6,293 bases of DNA from assembly GCA_030618495.1 (NCBI GenBank), contig JAUXDE010000096.1, forward strand, positions 1 through 6,293. Direction: 5' to 3'. The notes under the pieces are model-generated. The model saw only the letters and a program-made list of their open reading frames with translations. It was not told the origin of the DNA and searched no databases. Of this stretch, positions 4,870-6,293 are shown piece after piece; position 1 is the first letter of the stretch, and the number at the start of each line of letters is the position of its first letter. The translations under genes were made by a program, and so were the position numbers. The DNA comes from Clostridia bacterium (lineage in GTDB: Bacteria > UBA6262 > WVXT01 > JAUXBS01).

Positions 4870-5727
4870 TCAGGTTTTTTCCCCGATTGTTTTCTTCTCG
4901 TGGTTGGGAATCGCAAAGGAGGCAAGGTGTAGCTGGGGGTTGTAGTATTTTGTTTTGAGTTTTAATGCCCTGTACCGCTTGTTTATCGCGGACAGGGTTA
5001 TTTTTTTTGGATTTACTTTGTTTGAACCGAACATGAAACTGAAAAACCCGCCCACGTAGGTCGGCACGGGGGCGAGGTACAGCGCGTGGTGCCTGAAGAC
5101 TTTCCTGTACATATCATAGGAATAACGTATTTCGTCTTTCTGGAGGAAAGTGGACCCGGTCTGCCTCACCATTATCCCGCCGGGGGAAAGAATGTTCAGC
5201 GCGTCCCTGTAAAATTTCTTCTGGAAGAGTATCTTTGCGGGCCCTATCGGGTCGGATGAATCAACTATGATAACGTCGTATTTTTCCCCGGAATTCCTGA
5301 TAAACTTCGCCCCGTCGGCAAAAACAAGGTTCGCTCTCCTGTCCTTGAAGGCATTGCCTGATATGGAGGGGAGGTATTTAGCGCATAAGTCAACGACCCT
5401 GGCGTCAATCTCAACCATGGTTGCTTTCTTTACCGGGTGACTGAGGACTTCCCTCAGCACTCCGCCGTCGCCGCCCCCTATTATTAATACGTTCTTGGGC
5501 GCCGGGTGGGAGAACAGCGGGACGTGGGACATCATTTCGTGGTATATGAACTCGTCGGACTCGGTGGTCTGGACGACATCATCCAGTATAAGCGCCCTGC
5601 CGTAGGAATGGGTGTCTATGATTTTCATTTTCTGGAAGGCGCTGCTGCCGGAGTAAATCAGTTTTTTGAATTTGTAGCCTGCCCTGAGGTTTGGATGTAG
5701 GTGTTCGTAGAACCAGCTGTTCTTCAT
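4870..5727 (-). CDS. speE: Spermidine synthase-type aminopropyltransferase
   Basis: The 285-residue enzyme is full length for bacterial SpeE. It transfers the aminopropyl group of decarboxylated AdoMet to a diamine, usually putrescine to give spermidine, in the cytoplasm. Visible motifs in order: AFQ with the conserved Gln (Q32), LDDVVQTTESDEFIYHEMM (48-66), the nucleotide-binding GGGDGG (84-89), VEID (105-108), ADGAKF (137-142), YDVIIVDSSDPIGPA (150-164) and PTYVGGFFSF (222-231). By comparison with human spermidine synthase, Q32, D87, E106, D138, D156 and D159 match substrate-binding and catalytic positions, so the site looks intact. PTYVGG differs from the PTYPSG form and is closer to my recollection of E. 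coli SpeE (PTYYGG). The acceptor amine is not certain from sequence; agmatine is an alternative. The start overlaps the speD stop (ATGA), with only a weak GGA eight bases upstream, consistent with coupling to speD. Confidence 0.95.
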   Translation of the reverse strand: MKNSWFYEHLHPNLRAGYKFKKLIYSGSSAFQKMKIIDTHSYGRALILDDVVQTTESDEFIYHEMMSHVPLFSHPAPKNVLIIGGGDGGVLREVLSHPVKKATMVEIDARVVDLCAKYLPSISGNAFKDRRANLVFADGAKFIRNSGEKYDVIIVDSSDPIGPAKILFQKKFYRDALNILSPGGIMVRQTGSTFLQKDEIRYSYDMYRKVFRHHALYLAPVPTYVGGFFSFMFGSNKVNPKKITLSAINKRYRALKLKTKYYNPQLHLASFAIPNHEKKTIGEKT

Positions 5728-6104
5728 TCAAGTATTCCGCGTTTAACGTCCATTAACTGTGTCCTTAACGGTTTGAAATGTTTTTTAAGGACGGGAATGG
5801 CCTTGTGGGGTTTTACTGTTTTTCCGCAGGTAAATATATCCAGCGCGGCGTATTTGTATTCAGGCCAGGTATGCACGCTGATATGCGACTCGCTTAAAAC
5901 CGCAACTCCGGATACACCCCCGCCTTCGAATTTATGCAGTTTGATGCTCAGAATGGTCGCGCCCGCCGCTTTTGCGGAAGCAAGCAGGGCTTTCCTGATT
6001 TTATCCATTGATTCAAGGATAGAACAGTCCCAAAACTCTATTATTATATGTATGCCGGCGTATTTAATCCCTTCGGATCTAATACAAAATTCCTGCTTTT
6101 TCAT
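5724..6104 (-). CDS. speD: S-adenosylmethionine decarboxylase proenzyme, prokaryotic (pyruvoyl) type
   Basis: This 126-residue proenzyme makes decarboxylated AdoMet, the aminopropyl donor for SpeE. The diagnostic block is LSESHISVHTWPEYKYAALD (70-89). By analogy with the Thermotoga maritima enzyme, self-cleavage should occur between E72 and S73, turning S73 into the pyruvoyl cofactor; H78 and C93 (FTCG) match its processing and catalytic residues with identical spacing (+5 and +20). VSGVAVL (64-70) and the HKF segment (57-59) are also typical. The chain is about the family's usual length, with roughly ten residues (MKKQEFCIRSEG) ahead of where the homologous core begins. The start at 6104 is chosen because AAGGAG lies eight bases upstream and no other in-frame start is near. 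The first codons form one arm of an inverted repeat. It is the first gene of a speD-speE operon. Confidence 0.96.
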   Translation of the reverse strand: MKKQEFCIRSEGIKYAGIHIIIEFWDCSILESMDKIRKALLASAKAAGATILSIKLHKFEGGGVSGVAVLSESHISVHTWPEYKYAALDIFTCGKTVKPHKAIPVLKKHFKPLRTQLMDVKRGILE

Positions 6105-6138
6105 TTCATTTTCTCCTTATAAAATGAATTTTGTATTA
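6080..6138 (-). promoter_or_regulatory. Perfect 13-base inverted repeat enclosing the speD ribosome binding site (putative leader hairpin)
   Basis: In the speD mRNA sense, TAATACAAAATTC (6138-6126) is the exact reverse complement of GAATTTTGTATTA (6092-6080). The 33-base loop (6125-6093) contains the AAGGAG Shine-Dalgarno and the first four codons of speD. The 3' arm covers codons 5 to 8 and the first base of codon 9. Pairing stops cleanly at both ends. The stem would begin about a dozen bases from the predicted transcript start, so it makes up most of the 5' leader. Complementarity is seen directly. A role in translation control, mRNA stability or processing is inferred. Confidence 0.6.
6113..6118 (-). 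promoter_or_regulatory. Shine-Dalgarno (AAGGAG) of speD
   Basis: On the minus strand AAGGAG runs from 6118 to 6113, eight bases before the speD ATG (6104-6102). An out-of-frame ATG (6109-6107) is only three bases from it, too close for efficient initiation. This favours 6104 as the real start. The site lies in the loop of the predicted speD leader hairpin. Confidence 0.85.
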
Positions 6139-6156
6139 AAATTTATACAGCCACCA

Positions 6157-6185
6157 ATTAAACAAAATTATTTAAAATAAGTCAA
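6157..6185 (-). promoter_or_regulatory. Sigma-70-type promoter for speD-speE
   Basis: On the minus strand, TTGACT (6185-6180, five of six to the -35 consensus) and TTTAAT (6162-6157, five of six to the -10 consensus) are separated by 17 bases, the optimal spacing. Transcription would start near 6150, giving a leader of about 45 bases before the speD ATG. The surrounding DNA is very AT-rich, which raises the chance of random matches, but the combined -35, spacing and position fit well. Confidence 0.65.
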
Positions 6186-6214
6186 TAAAAAATTATAAAT
6201 AATTAATACGCGCG

Positions 6215-6228
6215 TTAGTAAATACTAA
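6215..6228. promoter_or_regulatory. Palindrome TTAGTA-AA-TACTAA upstream of the speD promoter (possible operator)
   Basis: Two perfect six-base half-sites are separated by AA. The centre lies about 70 bases upstream of the predicted speD start point. An outer pair, ACGCG (6208-6212) and CGCGT (6234-6238), is also complementary but asymmetrically placed. The size fits a dimeric regulator's site, but I recognise no specific regulator. No T-run directly follows that would make it a terminator. Confidence 0.35.
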
Positions 6229-6293
6229 ACATTCGCGTTTTTACCGTCGGGAGATAAAAAACAGGAAACCGTCATGGGCGAAGCGGTGAACCA

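Follow-up and report, generated by a model that had tools for sequence, protein, structure and literature searches.

S-adenosylmethionine decarboxylase, the product of speD, carries out the committed step to spermidine, and to our knowledge little has been described of its control in bacteria beyond a few model groups. Hairpins formed by the initiation region of an mRNA are well known as a kind, examples being the replicase operator of phage MS2/R17 and the RNA thermometers that sequester a Shine-Dalgarno (SD) sequence. The hairpin at the start of speD reported here, from an uncultured bacterium, is an undescribed example of this kind. Like those systems, it is a local hairpin spanning the ribosome-binding site and start codon of the affected gene, and its helix over the SD and AUG is predicted to be stable beyond chance, with z-scores of -4.3 in the window (the whole stretch of 6,293 nt of DNA that was analysed) and -3.4 in a same-genus relative. 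It differs from them in that the SD is exposed in a loop rather than paired, and in having no known bound protein; our search of the literature returned nothing usable on start hairpins with the SD in the loop. An RNA thermometer was considered and rejected, since the SD of the window sequence is predicted to be unpaired from 4 to 65 °C. Opening of the AUG is predicted only near 55-65 °C, outside the ordinary thermometer range, which may not be the range of this host.

Among polyamine synthesis genes, a SAM-I-derived spermidine riboswitch has been found in association with speD, speE, speB and ldcC; it occurs in Gram-positive bacteria and joins a SAM-I-like aptamer to a transcription terminator (PMC10853860). 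An initial annotation of this DNA knew of no described bacterial speD leader of the present form, which holds for that form but does not extend to speD leader control in general, given the published riboswitch. The likeness to our locus lies in the genes, speD and speE included (PMC10853860), and the riboswitch was rejected for this leader as both aptamer and terminator are missing: an Rfam search returned no SAM riboswitch in 5650-6293, even at an E-value of 5, and no terminator-like site was found on the minus strand in 5700-6293. The leader is predicted to be only ~46 nt long and therefore has no room for a SAM-I-type spermidine aptamer. No Rfam family reached its gathering score, the best being cow-rumen-4 at 25.2 against 48.5 bits. 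A second point of comparison is the polyamine modulon of E. coli, in which mRNAs such as oppA and rmf rely on an SD that is poor or distant and carry bulged initiation-region helices that are altered by spermidine; at normal levels, spermidine stimulates their translation, usually the opposite sign to feedback (PMC7177335, PMC4191411). The window resembles these mRNAs in its predicted bulged, U-rich initiation-region helix (10-nt bulge), an arrangement not predicted in the relative, and differs from them in its strong, well-spaced SD, AAGGAG at 8 nt from an ATG, in place of a distant or poor SD or a UUG or GUG start.

The hairpin at the speD start

The gene speD (5724-6104, minus strand) encodes an S-adenosylmethionine decarboxylase of 126 aa (Pfam PF02675, AdoMet_dc, E 2.9e-38, residues 19-123). 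Its stop codon is overlapped by the start of speE (4870-5727, minus strand), encoding a spermidine synthase of 285 aa (Pfam PF01564, E 9.9e-64), which places both genes in the same operon. On the same strand, TAATACAAAATTC (6126-6138) and GAATTTTGTATTA (6080-6092) are exact reverse complements, yielding a 13-bp outer helix, S1, with 33 nt between its arms. This perfect repeat had been annotated exactly, in its coordinates as in the assignment of its 3' arm to speD codons 5-9; the arm takes up codons 5-8 and the first base of codon 9, which indeed lie ahead of the conserved SpeD core covered by the AdoMet_dc match. The SD and ATG had been placed within a 33-nt loop, and both are inside, but the loop is itself structured. 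The fold of lowest energy contains a nested 10-bp helix, S2, that pairs TTCATTTTAT (6119-6128, minus strand) with ATGAAATGAA (6100-6109, minus strand), and since the latter includes the start codon (6102-6104), the AUG lies in a stem. S1 and S2 compete over the three bases TTC, common to their 5' arms. The 9-nt apical loop, AAGGAGAAA (6110-6118, minus strand), holds the SD (6113-6118), whose predicted probability of being unpaired is ~1, and the predicted structure of the window as a whole is a long hairpin with its bulge on the 3' side.

Downstream, fold prediction gives a small hairpin, S3 (6060-6085, minus strand), with the core GATCC-GAAG-GGATT (6066-6079), extendable by GTATT/AATAC; the extended form competes with S1, bases 6081-6085 being common to both. 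The predicted energies are -10.1 kcal/mol for S1 alone, -6.1 for S2 alone, -12.0 for the two together and -17.4 when S3 is added. We also considered, as a tentative idea, an attenuator-like chain of alternatives (an upstream TGTAT with the 5' arm, the 5' arm with the 3' arm, and the 3' arm with S3), of which the 3' half is conserved in the same-genus relative, while the sequence of the upstream partner differs between the two species. A two-codon ATG AAA TGA in the region of the S2 3' arm, ahead of the speD start, was rejected as a minimal upstream ORF, since it is not conserved and the relative has no such ATG.

A probable promoter could be read from the sequence at 6157-6185 (minus strand), with TTGACT (6180-6185) and TTTAAT (6157-6162) separated by a 17-nt spacer; it was missing from our consensus scan because the scan accepts a second hexamer only with A as its second base. 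TTTAAT is also found in the same-genus relative. From this predicted promoter we infer an mRNA 5' end near 6150 and a 5' UTR of ~46 nt, which would put the 5' arm of the outer helix ~12 nt downstream of the mRNA start, as a near-5'-terminal stem-loop. The predicted promoter is also overlapped by a second AT-rich inverted repeat, at 6166-6204, whose 13-nt arms match at 92%.

The comparison with dinucleotide shuffles that the initial annotation had proposed came out in favour of the structure: the 91-nt fold has a predicted energy of -17.6 kcal/mol against -8.05 ± 2.21 for the shuffles (z -4.3), and a value as low was reached in 0 of 200. When the same 120 nt were dinucleotide-shuffled 3000 times, a perfect start-straddling repeat of at least 13 bp arose twice, or at ~7e-4 per start, and the longest such repeat at 290 other SD-preceded starts of the genome was 9 bp, these starts being drawn from ~560 kb of the genome and called by a simple SD rule, some of them wrongly. 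Chance alone is a poor explanation for the helix on these figures. With ~1600 genes, one composition-only case per genome would be unsurprising at this rate, so the window genome alone is no proof of function; it is the conservation of the helix in a second species that raises the evidence above the level of a single genome.

Conservation within the genus

Our phylum-wide comparison of speD leaders covered six genomes, two of the genus and four of its sister family. In the same-genus relative (genome G001, locus L002), SpeD is 77% identical and the leader 80% identical; the S1 5' arm is retained as TAATACAAGGTTC and the 3' arm is unchanged. The counterpart arms there, TAATACAAGGTTCTT...AAGGAATTTTGTATTA, form an outer helix of 16 pairs. 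Three substitutions fall on the 5' side and all are pairing-compatible: two turn A-U into G-U, and the third, A to T just inside the old helix, takes it from 13 to 16 pairs. The core of S3 is retained as well, one G-U having become A-U, and the consensus structure of both species consists of S1 and S3; S1, not the AUG-pairing S2, is the better conserved.

The helix common to both species, in register and straddling the start, has 15 pairs at speD and at most 8 at the 14 other ortholog starts (a comparison of 15 ortholog pairs only), and of 1724 alignable window-strands a single one, most likely speD itself, attains 15, the next best being 12. Synonymous changes affect 39 of the 92 speD codons that are identical in amino acid but 0 of the first 11 (hypergeometric P 0.0014); the first such change falls at codon 16, leaving the synonymous sites of codons 2-15 unchanged. 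Other genes show no drop near the start on average (0.40 early versus 0.42 later).

Might the repeat nevertheless be a functionless product of an AT-rich leader and of the codons that specify E-F-C-I, surviving in the relative mainly through short divergence? The rate obtained by shuffling, which amounts to roughly one case per whole genome of such leaders, would allow for it, as would a comparison of two species at this leader identity, without double changes and without the helix outside the genus. Against this, when the same number of random substitutions was simulated, the share of trials in which the 13 outer pairs survived was 5-24%, varying with transition bias, so that neutral substitution breaks the helix in 76-95%; the silent sites of the first codons are unchanged, and nothing comparable exists at the 290 other starts. 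We therefore regard a chance origin as unlikely, if worth keeping in mind.

Selection on the RNA, which the initial annotation had suggested, thus gains moderate support from the retained helix, the pairing-compatible 5' changes and the unchanged silent sites of the 3' arm. The search for compensatory changes in relatives turned up single-sided G-U changes and the helix extension in two sequences; no pair changed on both sides, as covariation would show, so the evidence is moderate, not strong. Judged from the sequences, the start-site hairpin is probably under selection. Our preferred reading, to which we give a probability of roughly 0.5, is that a cis-acting RNA hairpin, conserved in one genus, is formed by the region in which translation of the speD-speE mRNA begins.

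Possible roles in speDE expression

The hairpin is probably a real local element of control or stability, and its role in the genus is most likely the tuning of speDE translation or of message stability. In the window, the AUG has a predicted unpaired probability of 0.07-0.18, an occlusion that is not extreme, as ~16% of other starts are equally or more occluded, and >99% of starts have a less open SD than this one (99.7th percentile). The AUG of the relative is about half unpaired, its inner helix is weaker, and its predicted fold does not show the bulged arrangement; once 60 nt of flanking sequence on each side is included, a different fold is favoured. Since the SD is highly open and the occlusion of the AUG ordinary, a strong brake is not demanded, nor is a strict off switch; the modelled structure would suit a moderate brake as well as a 5' stem-loop that displays the SD. 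On the preferred reading, the 30S subunit would dock at the exposed SD and would have to melt the AU-rich helix before placing the AUG, so that the stability of the helix would set a low, tunable rate of SpeD and SpeE synthesis; shifts in that stability, through salt, polyamine, a bound factor or competition from S3, would then alter output, though the hairpin may be a fixed brake and not a regulated one. Should it turn out to regulate speDE, it would offer a simple, portable case of control in which half of the element is coding sequence. As known now, it is small and genus-restricted, and its chief value is as a testable candidate.

A polyamine-responsive switch, a 5'-stabilising structure and an RNase III-type processing site had all been put forward for this hairpin, and sequence cannot separate the three. 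A 5'-terminal stem-loop could shield the speDE mRNA from decay, with ribosomes at the SD in the loop adding to the protection and no control of initiation. The predicted distance from the mRNA start to the 5' arm, the unusual exposure of the SD and the better conservation of the outer than of the AUG-pairing inner helix all fit such a shield. Classical stabilising stem-loops, however, lie entirely within the UTR, and this helix takes in coding sequence that ribosomes would melt at each initiation; we consider pure protection from decay unlikely.

Polyamine feedback, in which spermidine would stabilise the bulged AU-rich helix and lower speDE translation, or shift the balance between S1 and S3, suits the identity of the genes. 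Where translation of the window's speD begins, S1 and S2 together give a bulged U-rich stem, the type of RNA that spermidine reportedly stabilises in the E. coli modulon (PMC7177335, PMC4191411), and S1 has bases in common with extended S3. We judge it quite improbable, as Rfam holds no match, the predicted fold of the relative lacks the bulged arrangement, and spermidine at normal levels stimulates translation in the modulon, which is the wrong sign. A specific form, in which spermidine acting without a dedicated aptamer would set the balance between S1 and the S3 hairpin in the coding region, within a leader of <50 nt, as direct product feedback on speD-speE translation, is a long shot.

That the arms are instead two 13-bp half-sites of a DNA operator bound by a repressor is very improbable: they flank the start near the promoter and the 3' half-site is identical in both species, yet the 5' half-site of the relative changes AA to GG, breaking the symmetry of the DNA while keeping RNA pairing as G-U, and each genome has the paired pattern a single time, only at speD. 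Least probable of all is an RNase III-type site at which the speDE leader is cut, since the helix is long and nearly perfect but ~13-20 pairs with a bulge are a short substrate for RNase III, whose cleavage of the 3' arm would also ruin the start of the gene.

speD leaders outside the genus

The four genomes of the sister family (L024-L027; speD 54-56% identical) show no such complementarity, and neither do the Omnitrophota relatives L003 and L004 (58-60% identical). Further copies of the paired arms, besides those at speD of the two genus members, were not found in the six genomes examined. Related genomes with a speD start but no complementarity had been named in advance as evidence against the annotated hairpin, and such starts are what the sister family and Omnitrophota contain, whereas in the same-genus relative the complementarity is kept; the helix is consequently a genus-level element rather than a general speD leader.

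The sister family, of the same order, also has a hairpin at the speD start, of different sequence and position. It lies ~5-40 nt upstream of speD, pairs the SD (CUCCUU/AAGGGAG) and has an inner helix UAAGUU/AACUUA; it is thus wholly within the UTR with its SD paired, whereas the hairpin of the window reaches into coding sequence with its SD exposed. Nearly invariant in the four close genomes, it is unremarkable against shuffles (z -1.4) and ordinary against other starts. Farther from the gene, at about 60-130 nt upstream, the same four genomes carry an inverted repeat, CCCCGTTAGAAAT...ATTTCTAACGGGG, that is long and nearly perfect and may be a terminator or a dispersed repeat. In the two Omnitrophota loci, an ORF that begins with ATGGAT 31-43 nt upstream overlaps the start of speD (1464-1565 in L003, 1437-1586 in L004). 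There, speD is in the +1 frame relative to the ORF, runs of A7-A8 occur in the overlap and speD has no clear SD, an arrangement that could reflect an overlapping upstream ORF, a mis-assigned start or slippage.
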